A stretch of DNA of 63,001 nt, taken from Rhodospirillaceae bacterium (GTDB lineage: Bacteria; Pseudomonadota; Alphaproteobacteria; Thalassobaculales; Thalassobaculaceae). The translations under genes and the position numbers were made by a program. The notes beneath the pieces are model-generated. The model was given only the letters and a program-made list of their open reading frames with translations. It searched no databases and had not been told where the DNA came from. Positions 38,015-45,598 of this stretch are shown one piece after another (position 1 is the first letter of the stretch; every line of letters starts with the position of its first letter). Where the stretch lies: the NCBI GenBank assembly GCA_002722775.1, contig PBMU01000045.1:1-63001 (forward strand), given 5' to 3'.

Positions 38015-39964
38015 CTACGCCGACTTGTTGCGATCCGTTTCGTCGACCTCTTCAAAATCTGCGTCCACCACGTCCGATTCTCCCCCTGGGGCTTCCGCTG
38101 TACCACTACCCGCCCCCTCCGTAGTGGTGTCGGCGGAGCTCGGCGCCGCGTCCACTTCCTGCTGGGCCTTATAAAGCGCCTCGCCAAGCTTCATTGATGA
38201 CTGCTGCAAAGCGTCGACTTTAGCCTTTATCGCCTCGCCATCATCGCCTTCTACGACCACCTTAACTTCGGCAATCAGGTCTTCAACTTCGCGCCGCTCC
38301 GTTTCGTCGATTTTTTCGCCTATATCCGAAAGCATTCCTTCGGTGGTGTGGATCGCCTGTTCGGCCTGGTTTTTGATTTCGACCAGCTCCCGCCGCCCCT
38401 TATCAGCTTCAGCGTTCTGTTCGGCCTCGTGGATCATCTTCTCGATATCTTCCTCGGACAAACCACCAGAAGCCTGAATGCGGATCTGCTGTTCCTTGCC
38501 CGTCGCTTTATCCTTAGCCGAGACATTTACGATCCCATTTGCGTCTATGTCGAAGGTGACTTCAATCTGCGGGACACCACGTGGCGCCGGCGGAATACCA
38601 ACCAAGTCGAACTGGCCCAAAACCTTATTATCGGCGGCCATTTCACGTTCGCCCTGGAACACCCGGATAGTTACCGCTGTCTGATTATCTTCAGCAGTGG
38701 AAAAAACCTGGCTCTTCTTGGTCGGAATGGTTGTGTTCCGGTCGATCAGCCGCGTGAACACGCCACCAAGCGTTTCGATTCCGAGCGACAGAGGCGTCAC
38801 GTCAAGCAACAACACATCTTTCACGTCGCCCTTCAGCACACCCGCCTGTATTGCCGCACCAATGGCGACCACCTCGTCCGGATTAACGCCACGATGGGGC
38901 TCACGACCAAAAAAATTCTTAACCGTCTCCATGATCTTAGGCATGCGGGTCATACCGCCAACCAGGATTACCTCATCGATCTCACCAGCGCTGAGACCAG
39001 CATCTTTGAGGGCCGATTTACACGGATCAACCGTGCGCTGAACCAGATCTTCAGCCAGCGCCTCAAGCTTTGCGCGCGTGAGCTTAATGTTGAGATGCTT
39101 TGGTCCGGATTGGTCAGCGGTAATGAACGGCAAATTGATCTCGGTCTGTATTGAGCTGGAAAGCTCAATCTTTGCCTTTTCGGCCGCTTCTTTGAGGCGT
39201 TGAAGCGCCAGCTTGTCGGAGCGAAGATCAATCGCGCTTTCTTTTCTAAACTCGTCGGCTAGGTAATCGATCACCCGATGATCAAAATCCTCCCCGCCGA
39301 GGAATGTGTCGCCATTGGTCGACTTTACTTCGAAAACTCCGTCCCCAATTTCCAGAACCGAAACATCGAAGGTGCCCCCGCCAAGATCATAGACCGCAAT
39401 GGTGCCGGTATTCTTCTTATCGAGACCATACGCGAGTGCGGCAGCTGTAGGCTCATTGATAATCCGCAGTACATCGAGACCCGCGATCTTCCCGGCATCC
39501 TTGGTCGCTTGTCGTTGAGCATCGTTAAAATAAGCCGGAACCGTAATGACCGCCTGGTCGACGGCATCACCAAGAAATGCTTCAGCATCCTCCTTGAGTT
39601 TCCGCAACGTAAAGCTGGAAATTTGGCTCGGGCTGTACTTTTCGCCCTGTGCCTCAACCCAAGCATCGCCGTTTTCACCAGGCACGACTTGGTAAGGCAT
39701 CAGGTCCGAGAACTTCTTGGCTGCGTCATCGTCATGACGCCTGCCGATAAGGCGTTTGATCGCAAACAATGTGTTCTCTGGATTGGTCACCGCCTGGCGT
39801 TTGGCCGCCTGGCCCACAAGTCGCTCGCCATCGTCCGCAAATGCTATCATCGAGGGGGTAGTACGCGCGCCCTCGGCGTTTTCGATGACACGAGCGTCCG
39901 TGCCATCCATGAAGGCAACGCACGAATTAGTGGTACCCAGGTCGATTCCAATTACCTTAGCCAT
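38015..39964 (-). CDS. dnaK: Chaperone DnaK (Hsp70)
   Basis: ATP-dependent Hsp70 chaperone. The 649-residue protein has the ATPase signature [12 protein letters not shown] at residues 5-16, [14 protein letters not shown] near 195, and [10 protein letters not shown] near 340. The substrate-binding domain contains [17 protein letters not shown]. The C-terminal lid ends in an acidic/Gly-rich tail. A sigma-32-type promoter lies upstream. Neighbours are dnaJ downstream and, beyond the DUF1848 gene, grpE and hrcA. Confidence 0.98.
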
Positions 39965-40047
39965 GTATTCCTCTTTCGCTCAGCCACCGGAGCAAGCCCC
40001 GAAAGCACCAAACCCGATGCCAATTTTAAAGGTTCACGCTGTAAAAG

Positions 40048-40078
40048 CTATATAGGAGGACAGCAACGCACCTGCAAG
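40048..40078 (-). promoter_or_regulatory. Sigma-32 type heat-shock promoter of dnaK
   Basis: On the minus strand CTTG (40075-40078), 18 bases, then CCTATATAG (40048-40056). This fits the alphaproteobacterial heat-shock pattern CTTG-N17/18-CYTATNT. The predicted leader is about 80 bases. Confidence 0.65.
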
Positions 40079-40210
40079 CGCAAGACGTTCCCAGTCGTCT
40101 GTACCGGAGGACGAATTCGGAAAAGGCGGACGGCCGCGACAGCGCCATCTTGCCCCATCGGCCCTCTCGGGCCAAAGTCGCGATGTTGGTAAATATGCAG
40201 GGTCAATCCT

Positions 40211-41092
40211 ATGATCATTTCTGCCAGCTATCGAACCGACATACCCGCCTTCCACGCCGAGTGGTTCGCGGAGAGATTTTCCGCGGGTTTCTGCGAGGTT
40301 CGCAATCCCTATTCTAACGCCACAACGCATGTTTCACTTGCGCACGAGAACGTTGACGGCTTCGTGTTCTGGACACGGAGACTTACTCCTTTCCTGCCAA
40401 TGCTCAACCGGCTGAAGGATATCGGTGCGGCATTCGTCGTGCACTATACGATCACCGGGTACCCCCGCGAACTCGAACCAGCCTTACCCACCTGGCAACA
40501 TGCGGTCCGCGAGGTTGCCGGGGCCGCTCGGCAGTTTGGGCCGCGCACCTTTGTTTGGCGCTACGACCCGGTGCTCCTAACAAGCATCACCCCACCTAGT
40601 TTTCATCGCGAGAACTTTAGCCAACTGGCGAAAATTTTAACTGGAGAGGTCGACGAAGTCATTCTATCCTTTGCGCATATCTACCAAAAAACCCGGAGAA
40701 ATATCGAACGCGCGGCCAATCACCACGGGTTTACTTGGCGGGATCCCGAATCAGGAGAAAAGCGGGCTTTATTGGCCGATTTAGCCGCGATCGCAGCTAA
40801 AACCGGTTTGCGCCCGACGCTTTGCGCCCAACCCGAGCTCAGCATCGACGGATTGGAGCCGGCCCGCTGCATCGACGCAGCGCGCTTGTCCGACGTGAAG
40901 GGCAAGCCGGTCGTGGCTCGCGAAAAGAGCCACAGAACGGGTTGCCTTTGCGCGGAATCTCGAGACATAGGCGCCTACGATACTTGCGTGCACGGTTGCG
41001 TCTATTGCTACGCGGTGCGCACCCGAGAGATCGCAAAGCAGGCTCTTCTTATCCGGTCCAGATTGACGCCGGATGACCGGATTTCACTTTAG
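40211..41092 (+). CDS. DUF1848 family protein with C-terminal cysteine cluster
   Basis: A 293-residue protein of the DUF1848 family; function is not established. The N-terminus (MIISASYRTDIPAFHAEWF) and a FVFWTRRL-type segment near residue 52 are family hallmarks, with WRYDPV at about 116-121. Near the C-terminus, C245 and C247 are followed by RDIGAYDTC and the cluster C259-x3-C263-x2-C266 (DTCVHGCVYCYA). That spacing equals the radical-SAM CX3CX2C motif and resembles the spore photoproduct lyase type, but here it sits at the end of the protein rather than near the start. An iron-sulfur cluster is likely; radical chemistry is inference. It is divergent from dnaK and convergent with grpE. Confidence 0.85.
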   Translation: MIISASYRTDIPAFHAEWFAERFSAGFCEVRNPYSNATTHVSLAHENVDGFVFWTRRLTPFLPMLNRLKDIGAAFVVHYTITGYPRELEPALPTWQHAVREVAGAARQFGPRTFVWRYDPVLLTSITPPSFHRENFSQLAKILTGEVDEVILSFAHIYQKTRRNIERAANHHGFTWRDPESGEKRALLADLAAIAAKTGLRPTLCAQPELSIDGLEPARCIDAARLSDVKGKPVVAREKSHRTGCLCAESRDIGAYDTCVHGCVYCYAVRTREIAKQALLIRSRLTPDDRISL

Positions 41093-41105: not shown

Positions 41106-41123
41106 AGCCTGAACAATCAGGCT
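41106..41123. terminator. Hairpin between the DUF1848 gene and grpE
   Basis: Perfect 7-base-pair stem AGCCTGA/TCAGGCT with loop ACAA, located 14 bases after the DUF1848 stop and spanning the grpE stop codon. There is no T-run on either strand, so if it terminates transcription it may need Rho or act as a 3' end stabiliser. Confidence 0.4.
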
Positions 41124-41752
41124 GTTGTGTCTAGATTCTCGATCGTCCCATCATCGACCGGACCTTTAGCGACCCCAACCATGGCCGCGCGCAACACCCG
41201 GTCCTCGATTGCGTATCCCGGCTGCAGCACTTGAACAATAGTGCCTGGTTCCTCGGCGGGGTCTTCAACCTCAAACATGGCTTGGTGGAAATTGTAGTCG
41301 AACTTTTCGCCCATGGGTTGGATTTTACGAATCCCATGCTTTTCGAATGCAGCGAGCAATTCCCGCTCCGTCATTTCAACCCCTATGATCAGATTACGAA
41401 CCACCTCGTCAGCGTTATCCAGATCCTTTGGTGCTGATTCTAGTGCTCGTCGTAAGTTGTCGGCAGCGCTTAACATATCCTTCGCGAAATTTGCGATTCC
41501 GAACTTGCGCGTCTGCTCACGCTCCCGGTCTGCGCGCTTACGCAGATTGTCGGTTTCGGCCACCGCACGCAAAAACTGGTCCTTTAGTTCCGTGACCTGA
41601 GACTCGAGCGCCGCTTCACGCTCCTCGACGGATTCTGATGGGTCGGCCGCCGTTTCTATATCTGACTCGCCTACTGGTTCGGTGATTTTCTCAACCTCCG
41701 GTTCAGACACTACTTCCTCGGGTTTTTCTTTATCCTGGTCTTGTTCGGACAT
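41117..41752 (-). CDS. grpE: Nucleotide exchange factor GrpE
   Basis: Releases ADP from DnaK. The 211-residue protein has a long acidic, disordered N-terminus (residues 1-40, rich in E and D), a coiled-coil helix (about 45-90) with the AETDNLRKRADRE signature, and the C-terminal beta domain ending in RAAMVGVAKG. It follows hrcA by 104 bases. I see no CIRCE element or convincing heat-shock promoter in that gap, so it may rely on readthrough from hrcA. Confidence 0.96.
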   Translation of the reverse strand: MSEQDQDKEKPEEVVSEPEVEKITEPVGESDIETAADPSESVEEREAALESQVTELKDQFLRAVAETDNLRKRADREREQTRKFGIANFAKDMLSAADNLRRALESAPKDLDNADEVVRNLIIGVEMTERELLAAFEKHGIRKIQPMGEKFDYNFHQAMFEVEDPAEEPGTIVQVLQPGYAIEDRVLRAAMVGVAKGPVDDGTIENLDTTA

Positions 41753-43784: not shown

Positions 43785-44411
43785 ATGACCCGCACCTTCA
43801 CGGGGAGCCGCTTGCTCGTGGCAAGCCATAACGCGGGCAAGGTGCTCGAGATAATTAAGCTTTTAGAAGGACTTTCGATCGCTGTGGTTTCTGCCAGCGA
43901 TCTCAGCCTTGCAGAGCCAGAAGAGACCGCTAATAGTTTTATCGGTAATGCTGAATTGAAAGCTCTTGCAGGGGCGCGTGCATCCGGGATCCCGGCTCTA
44001 GCCGACGATTCGGGCCTCGTGGTCCACGCGCTGGCCGGCAATCCTGGTATCTATTCGGCTCGCTGGGCCGGTCCAAACAAAGATTTCACCATGGCGATGC
44101 ATAAGGTAGAGGACGCGCTCGTCTGTTTGGAATCAAAGACCGGAGCCGTGCCCAGCCGTCGCGCAAGTTTCGTGTGTGCGCTCTCATTCGCCTGGCCAGA
44201 TGGCCACGTCGAGACTGTCGAGGGGGAGGTTTCTGGTCAACTGGTCTGGCCACCAAGGGGTGACGCTGGGTTTGGCTATGACCCAATCTTCGTGCCTGAA
44301 GGCCACGACAAGACTTTCGGAGAAATCGAACCGGATTTGAAACATTCACTGAGCCACCGTGCAGATGCGTTCACCAAGATGCTGGCATCGGTGTTCGGAA
44401 AAAACGGGTGA
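43785..44411 (+). CDS. rdgB: XTP/dITP diphosphatase (RdgB/HAM1)
   Basis: House-cleaning pyrophosphatase that removes deaminated purine nucleotides such as dITP and XTP. The 208-residue protein has the [10 protein letters not shown] substrate loop (about residues 11-20), the [10 protein letters not shown] motif with the catalytic aspartate, YSARWAG, and the FGYDPIF motif near residue 165. It starts 14 bases after rph and its stop overlaps the hemW GTG start by 4 bases. Confidence 0.97.
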
Positions 44412-45598
44412 CGGACAACGTCGACGACGGGTTTGGCCTCTATGTCCATTGGCCATTCTGCCTATCCAAGTGCCCCTACTGCGACTTCAACAGCCATGTG
44501 AGCGGCGCTGTCGATAACGATCGTTGGCGCCGCGCACTCCTCCACGAACTCGAGAGCCTCGCAACACGCGTTACGTCTAGGCACCTAAAGAGTGTTTTCT
44601 TTGGGGGCGGCACGCCCTCACTGATGGACCCCGACACAACGGCCGTCATTATTGAGGCCGCCCGGAACATCTGGCCGAATAACGCAGAGCCAGAAATCAC
44701 ACTGGAAGCCAATCCAACCTCAGCGGAAACCTTCCGTCTACGGTCTTTCCGGGCCGCTGGCGTCAATCGGCTATCGCTCGGAATTCAAGCCCTAAACGAC
44801 GAGGATCTTGCTTTCCTAGGTCGAACCCATATGGCTCGCGAGGCGCTCGGCGCGTTGGATATCGCCAAGTCCTGTTTCGAAAGAGTCTCTTTCGACCTGA
44901 TCTATGCCCGCCCTCGGCAGTCATTGGTTTCGTGGGAAGCGGAACTTCGCCAAGCAATCGCTCTGACCAGTGAACATTTATCTGTCTATCAGCTAACCAT
45001 TGAGCCCGGCACCCAATTCCATGCTCGCCATGGACGAGGTGAAATTCCACTGCCCGACGAGGATCTAGGCGGAGCTATGTTTGAACTGACGCGAGCACTC
45101 TTAGCCGGCGCCGGGCTGCCTGCGTACGAGATTTCCAACCACGCCCGCCCAGGCGCCGAATGTCAGCACAATCTGGTCTATTGGCGCAGCCAGGACTATC
45201 TCGGTATTGGGCCTGGCGCTCATAGCAGGATAACTAGACAGAACGGGCACCGCTATTCTTTGCGGGCTCATCGTGCGCCATCCATCTGGCTCGATCATGT
45301 GGAAAAATACGGGCAAGGGGTGATTGAGGAAGCTTCGCTTTCCCGATGGGAATCAGTTGTTGAGTTTTTGATGATGGGTCTGCGGCTAACCGAAGGTGTG
45401 TCGAGATCAAGGCTCGAATTCATAGCAGAAGAGAGCCTTGAAGATATGTTCAACGCCAATGATCTCGCAGCACTGATTGACCAAGGATATATCAGGGTCG
45501 ACAGAACGGTCATCCAGGCGACGGAATCCGGACTACAGCGCCTTGATGGTGTTCTCGCGATGCTACTCGCTAGACCGCAATTGCGGCCTGCCCTATAG
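44408..45598 (+). CDS. hemW: Radical SAM family heme chaperone HemW
   Basis: HemN-like radical-SAM protein now regarded as a heme chaperone rather than a coproporphyrinogen dehydrogenase. The 396-residue protein has the cluster motif CLSKCPYC (CX3CX2C, about residues 18-25), GGGTPSL near residue 60, the LSLGIQ segment, and a C-terminal HemN domain. The GTG start overlaps rdgB. Its end overlaps the convergent LppC-like gene by 6 bases. Confidence 0.95.

Follow-up and report, generated by a model that had tools for sequence, protein, structure and literature searches.

A DUF1848 gene between dnaK and grpE

The window, by which we mean the whole 63,001-nucleotide stretch of DNA analysed here, carries between dnaK and grpE, and on the opposite strand to both, an open reading frame that runs on the + strand from an ATG at 40211 to a stop codon at 41090–41092 and encodes a protein of 293 aa (Table 1). 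An earlier note on this DNA had described the gene in this setting, together with C245, C247, a DIGAYDTC segment and the motif C259-x3-C263-x2-C266, and the coordinates and the translation agree with that description in each respect. The protein is a plain member of the family DUF1848 (PF08902), from which it shows no difference: residues 2–268 match the profile over its full length (positions 1–262 of 262) at 286.7 bits, well above the curated cut-off of 30.5 bits. The same note called the family one without established function, in keeping with the unknown-function name that PF08902 carries. The host genome (~70% complete) holds one copy.

Table 1. Coordinates in the window of the DUF1848 gene, its flanking genes and the elements of the encoded protein.
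Feature	Coordinates	Strand	Basis or remarks
dnaK, flanking gene	38015..39964	-	next of 12 reference genes in 63/80 loci
Spacer of 246 bp separating the dnaK and DUF1848 genes, which start divergently	39965..40210		ORF coordinates
DUF1848 gene, 293 aa, proposed circularly permuted radical-SAM protein	40211..41092	+	PF08902 E 2.9e-85; relatives in 80 loci
Residues 1–204: barrel strands numbered beta-2 to beta-7, with helices	40211..40822	+	AF2 model, VIA-align, hhalign
C205	40823..40825	+	end of last barrel strand before the linker; first extra invariant cysteine
C220 (RCID)	40868..40870	+	linker; second extra cysteine
C245-x-C247	40943..40951	+	just before beta-1; third and fourth extra cysteines
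Residues 248–267: beta-1 and cluster loop with C259, C263 and C266 (CX3CX2C)	40952..41011	+	alignments, model
Residues 272–283: helix alpha-1, with which the permuted core ends	41024..41059	+	model, DSSP
grpE, flanking gene	41117..41752	-	next of 12 reference genes in 43/80 loci; many contigs short

The C-terminal cysteines are, we take it, likened in Pfam's own PF08902 entry to the cluster of the radical-SAM family PF04055. The window protein gave no match to PF04055 at E up to 1 (in a search whose filters remove most matches above 0.1) and none to the spore photoproduct lyase models PF20903 and TIGR04070 at E up to 1, and PDB sequence searches using DUF1848 returned no credible match. The sole hint from NCBIfam is a weak match of residues 249–272 to the cysteine-loop region of PA0069 (NF033668), which at 17.1 bits against a cut-off of 360, and over those residues only, leaves the protein outside that family. 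A literature search that covered few subscription papers, and whose silence is therefore weak evidence of absence, found no paper naming DUF1848 or PF08902 and no permuted radical-SAM family among the papers listed; the permutations treated in one paper (PMC1282579) concern Rossmann-type methyltransferases.

Among the 80 related loci, dnaK adjoins and diverges from the DUF1848 gene in 63, with a gap between tblastn matches of median 242 bp (range 165–1718 across the 63). This adjacency may be plain vertical inheritance, because the 80 loci were chosen by similarity to the window protein and neighbours were judged among 12 reference genes only. Surveying the neighbourhoods, as the earlier note had proposed, showed a place beside dnaK that is conserved in most of these relatives but not in the plasmid and other copies inspected, which have different neighbours. 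No CIRCE element occurs in the window at up to three mismatches, and a sigma-32-like pattern has no match in the gap between dnaK and the DUF1848 gene and is no commoner in the window than expected (49 observed, 59.8 from shuffles). At four of the 80 loci (L045, L064, L069 and L077) the neighbouring reference gene is nth, encoding endonuclease III, on the same strand.

Seven conserved cysteines

A genome collection yielded 156 relatives, from which 80 loci were kept; these contain 81 ORFs. The first alignment comprised the window protein and 74 of the 81 ORFs, leaving out five whose start pattern did not fit (L003, L021, L022, L061, L077), one cut at a contig end (L049) and a second fragment in L026. 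In these 75 sequences C205, C220, C245, C247, C259 and C266 are each present throughout (75/75), and C263 is present in 74. By the ORF list, CX3CX2C occurs in 78 of the 80 loci, the exceptions being L055, with an Arg, and L049, where the motif is cut off. In the L055 protein, a close relative, this Arg replaces the second cluster cysteine (CPHGR); no other such case was seen among the 80 loci, and it is either a natural variant or a sequencing error. At L026 a partial second DUF1848 C-terminal segment, consisting of the cysteine loop and tail, lies at about 7958, ~1 kb behind the full gene, and is probably a decayed duplicate.

Conservation extends to 61 further ORFs from archaea, from the phylum of a Chloroflexi-labelled genome and from viral contigs. 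Two ORFs whose matches were split or short had been removed from this set, which contains 43 distinct sequences; two of these 43 recur from the first alignment and 17 occur in A4. All seven cysteine columns are filled in 61 of 61, except that of C220 (60/61), where the lone exception looks like a local misalignment. Two further residues, R117 and D119, are likewise kept in all 61. The three cysteines with the radical-SAM spacing CX3CX2C, C259, C263 and C266, are thus conserved in 74–75 of 75 and in 61 of 61 sequences. The five C-terminal cysteines named in the earlier note are indeed conserved, but the set was incomplete: because C205 and C220 show the same degree of conservation, the pattern is one of seven cysteines, not five.

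Predicted structure and fold comparison

An AlphaFold2 model computed from 86 sequences has a mean pLDDT of 94.9 and a pTM of 0.92. Its chain opens with a strand at residues 2–5, the strand counted as the seventh of the barrel spans 201–204, a further strand at 251–253 stands directly before the CX3CX2C loop, and the final helix covers 272–283 (DSSP). The N-terminal part, which the earlier note had called barrel-like, accordingly holds strands beta-2 to beta-7 within residues 1–204 of the predicted model, and a (beta-alpha)6-type barrel core is present, on that predicted model only.

Foldseek searches of the PDB returned, among the best 50 rows, only unrelated TIM barrels, with TM-scores up to 0.38. 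When Foldseek's 1000 candidates were re-ranked by VIA-align, a DALI-like comparison of which the best 50 rows were examined, rows 1–15 were all radical-SAM proteins by entry title (Z 8.6–9.9), comprising Elp3 (Z 9.9), biotin synthase, spore photoproduct lyase (SPL), PFL activating enzyme (PFL-AE), SuiB, viperin and RlmN; rows 16 and 17 were other TIM barrels, LeuA (8.4) and a designed barrel (8.3). These Z values are modestly above background, the typical best Z being 7–8 for models without a clear match. A predicted fold without a SAM site, which the earlier note had held would speak against its proposal, is not what emerged at the level of the fold, where radical-SAM entries lead the comparison.

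The alignment to SPL also indicates where the chain begins. VIA-align pairs model residues 1–206 with residues 134–341 of SPL (4fhc), and the profile of the archaeal family described below puts the SPL cluster cysteines at chain positions 117, 121 and 124. We take these to be C90, C94 and C97 in the usual numbering, an offset of 27, so that SPL residue 134 lies in the stretch that aligns with the beta-2 motif of the archaeal family. The SPL residue that corresponds to DUF1848 residue 1 therefore comes after SPL's CX3CX2C, and sequence and structure agree in placing the opening of the chain between alpha-1 and beta-2.

HemW, encoded in the same window at 44408–45598, served as a canonical control; its model was predicted from 25 sequences, namely that of the window and 24 of the 27 found in the loci (pLDDT 90.5), and was put through the same fold comparison. 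Eight PDB entries are common to the rows examined in both lists, although they represent three kinds of protein only (five Elp3, two PFL-AE, one DesII). On these entries, taken in the order 8asw, 6ia6, 5l7j, 5l7l, 3c8f, 8fo0, 6qk7 and 8hzv, the HemW alignments start at 86, 10, 7, 9, 17, 17, 94 and 111, and those of DUF1848 at 174, 78, 78, 78, 71, 71, 174 and 181. Residue 1 of DUF1848 thus aligns 54–88 residues later than the HemW start, an offset that in these models fits a missing beta-1, cluster loop and alpha-1. PMC11659888 describes nearly all radical-SAM structures as having a core that starts with beta-1, followed by the CX3CX2C loop. In DUF1848 beta-1 and this loop lie at the C-terminus, and because the core does not start with beta-1 we call the family a permuted relative that would work like a radical-SAM enzyme, rather than an ordinary member.

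Archaeal relatives with the blocks in swapped order

When 148 genomes from one archaeal phylum were searched with PF08902, 15 gave matches above the cut-off and 16 gave weaker ones. Four of the weak ORFs match in two pieces and in swapped order, with profile positions ~232–262 coming first and ~60–220 later in the chain. For two of these proteins PF04055 Radical_SAM gives a match (E 2.9e-14 and 1.7e-11), and both also exceed the DUF1848 cut-off, at 40.0 and 44.2 bits against 30.5 and in two stretches each; their NCBIfam relatives include PA0069, mobile pair B, Rv2578c and spore photoproduct lyase, none of which reaches its cut-off. An HMM of our own, built from 86 DUF1848 sequences and applied to 15 archaeal ORFs (L109–L123), found the cysteine block in the N-terminal part of all 15, followed by the barrel block in eight and alone in the other seven; the reverse, DUF1848-like order was found in none of the 15. 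Three of the eight barrel-block matches are individually not significant (i-E 0.015–0.078).

The order of the motifs in the archaeal family, as aligned, is CxC, CX3CX2C, SxSxSSDPYPP, RxDP, CREG and CDG, and that in DUF1848 is SASYRTDIPA, WRYDP, C205, C220-x-D, C245-x-C247 and CX3CX2C; on these alignments, the archaeal motifs are those of DUF1848 in rotated order. Six of the seven cysteines (C205, C245, C247, C259, C263 and C266) are paired with archaeal cysteines through alignments, C205 with that of FCREG and C245-x-C247 with the N-terminal CxC, and the counterpart of C220, the SCDG cysteine, was paired by eye only, no alignment extending that far. Both extra cysteine motifs are retained in 22 of the 23 archaeal-family loci (24 of 30 genomes fetched, the gene going unrecognised in one locus). 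Within the 148 genomes DUF1848 is present in 15 and the archaeal family in 30 (scored as present above 350 bits, the next best being 153), and none has both, a non-overlap with a chance probability of 0.028 that is confounded by kinship. No relatives of the archaeal family were found in the viral contigs.

In native order, profile–profile comparison with hhalign aligns DUF1848 to the archaeal family over 33 columns with a score of 61.9; when DUF1848 is rotated with cuts at residues 210–240, the alignment extends over 228–229 columns with a score of 92.4–92.6 (E 7e-13). In the control comparison of the archaeal family with PA0069, both non-permuted, rotation never helps: the score is 254 (169 columns) in native order or with cuts outside the aligned core, and 134–238 with cuts inside it. 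DUF1848 and PA0069 yield no joint alignment in any rotation, the best being either the cysteine block (22–23 columns) or the barrel block (75 columns) at ~53.5 each, so that the evidence from rotation comes from a single archaeal family. With plain HMMER a rotated DUF1848 model gained almost nothing on the archaeal proteins (at best 45.4 bits, against 45.2 for the native model), because both models score the two blocks apart.

This behaviour of HMMER, which handles the blocks as separate, is what one would expect if the N-terminal 230 residues were an ordinary TIM barrel and the tail a separately acquired ferredoxin-like or zinc-finger element, unrelated to radical-SAM chemistry; the assorted non-radical TIM barrels that Foldseek alone returns and the lack of a PF04055 match in the window protein point the same way. 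We nevertheless consider such a composite very unlikely, since both blocks match single archaeal radical-SAM proteins in swapped order, one rotated profile alignment spans the two of them, and the radical-SAM entries that head the DALI-like list are aligned from beta-2 onward. The earlier note's proposal of a circular permutation is instead where the evidence converges, with the swapped blocks, the rotation scan, the predicted structure and the HemW control all in agreement.

Distribution, neighbours and possible substrate

DUF1848 has a patchy distribution, with matches in 6 of 398 genomes from the phylum to which the window belongs and in 15 of 201 from that of a Chloroflexi-labelled genome, and the family is spread over Alphaproteobacteria, Chloroflexi-type bacteria, archaea, plasmids and viral contigs. 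One uncultured 735-kb phage record (L199, LR756501.1) encodes a DUF1848 protein. On five viral contigs (L129, L131, L133, L134, L135) a gene of 283–304 aa lies just upstream of the DUF1848 gene on the same strand; three such upstream genes were searched against Pfam and NCBIfam and gave no match, and two that were inspected by eye contain several cysteines and a glycine motif like that of class I methyltransferases. A Roseburia plasmid (L196, 4322–6942) carries consecutive genes for a macrodomain ADP-ribose hydrolase, Sir2 and DUF1848, and another DUF1848 copy has an endonuclease as a neighbour.

The archaeal seven-cysteine gene has a neighbour of its own. In 9 of 23 loci (L155, L157, L208, L211, L212, L214, L215, L217 and L219) it is directly preceded, on the same strand, by a DUF84-type (ITP/XTPase-like) gene, an identity that rests on Pfam tests in two of the nine loci and on a BLAST cluster in the rest. 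This adjacency suggests that the archaeal family is linked to damaged or deaminated nucleotides.

Might DUF1848 then repair or modify bases of DNA or RNA, as spore photoproduct lyase does? We regard this elaboration of the permutant reading as a possibility to be held tentatively. It is encouraged by the weak resemblance that the archaeal relatives bear to spore photoproduct lyase, by one archaeal DUF1848 gene being followed directly by mobile pair B and Fpg, by AlkB near another copy on a cyanobacterial plasmid, by nth beside DUF1848 in 4 of the 80 loci (12 reference genes), by ParB-like or DNA methyltransferase families in up to 4 of 30 neighbours of the viral copies, and by the position of the archaeal family directly behind the DUF84-type NTPase gene in those 9 of 23 loci. 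Against it, DUF84 is near none of the DUF1848 loci searched, the Roseburia plasmid carries the macrodomain–Sir2 pair instead, and no partner recurs widely: the commonest Pfam family is present in 5 of 51 neighbours, among the best 25 of 54 families. The scan of archaeal and Chloroflexi-type neighbours that gave this figure covered 51 of 113 proposed neighbours, and the families in it (again the best 25 of 54) included NERD, in 5 of the 51, and tRNA-synthetase families, in 3, a recurrence that may reflect related genomes. Outside Alphaproteobacteria the neighbour surveys yielded no recurring partner of clear meaning. Taken by analogy, a nucleic-acid substrate would be a guess, and a rather doubtful one.

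A probable natural circular permutant of the radical-SAM barrel

Judged by the sequence comparisons and the predicted model, the gene at 40211–41092 very probably encodes a natural circular permutant of the radical-SAM barrel, a reading that explains the data best and in which the chemistry is carried over from canonical members; the interpretation is supported at the level of fold and sequence. The chain would start at the canonical beta-2 and end with beta-1, the CX3CX2C loop and alpha-1. C259, C263 and C266 would bind a [4Fe-4S] cluster, on whose open iron SAM would sit and be cleaved to the 5'-deoxyadenosyl radical as in canonical members, with the radical chemistry taking place inside the barrel.

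Such a fold might also have given up the radical chemistry and hold a metal in a structural or regulatory role, perhaps sensing redox state or metals beside dnaK, as the divergent arrangement with dnaK in 63 of the 80 related loci and the four extra cysteines could suggest. This we think very unlikely: CX3CX2C is kept in 78 of the 80 related loci and in all 61 distant ORFs, as are R117 and D119 in the latter, the shared spacer has neither CIRCE nor a sigma-32-like site, and dnaK is absent from the 6 kb around four annotated copies on plasmids.

The four extra cysteines, C205, C220, C245 and C247, would bind a second metal site, either an auxiliary Fe–S cluster or zinc, at the junction of the ancestral N- and C-termini. 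Such a site would, in the non-permuted family, tie the two chain ends together, and the archaeal-family counterparts of the four cysteines do sit at the two ends of the chain. Were the ancestral ends held by a metal site, as they may have been, their fusion and the opening of new ends would be tolerable, which could explain how the chain came to be rotated. We offer as a speculative scenario, which is perhaps not the likeliest in all its parts, that the family is a natural permutant in which a second, four-cysteine cluster stapled the ends and so enabled the permutation, and that it may be an unrecognised enzyme of nucleic-acid repair or modification, carried by some phages.

What marks a sequence as a radical-SAM enzyme is an early CX3CX2C with the barrel after it; a family with the rotated order escapes PF04055 and remains a DUF. 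Other permuted radical-SAM families may be worth seeking with rotated profiles. DUF1848 is not ordinary, yet on present evidence it is no new kind of chemistry.

Comparison with known systems

ThiC is a radical-SAM enzyme whose cysteines also lie close to the C-terminus, its CX2CX4C motif being in a separate, swapped domain. DUF1848 differs from it in having CX3CX2C, without the ThiC motif, and in that its cysteines belong to the barrel itself. The likeness to spore photoproduct lyase (4fhc) is one of fold (Z 9.4, rmsd 3.3, 182 residues), and the difference lies in the position of CX3CX2C, which precedes the matched region in the lyase and is C-terminal in DUF1848. PFL activating enzyme (3c8f, 8fo0) also matches in fold (Z 9.2–9.3, rmsd 2.8–2.9, 160–164 residues), but aligns with HemW from residue 17 and with DUF1848 only from residue 71. 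The archaeal seven-cysteine family, itself distant from the NCBIfam families PA0069, Rv2578c, mobile pair B and spore photoproduct lyase, shares with DUF1848 the cysteine pattern, the beta-2 S-x-S..D-x-P motif and the RxDP motif; it differs in having CxC and CX3CX2C at the N-terminus and the other two cysteines at the C-terminus. On the sequence alignments, this archaeal radical-SAM family, with the same cysteine pattern rotated, is the nearest non-permuted relative of DUF1848 that we found.
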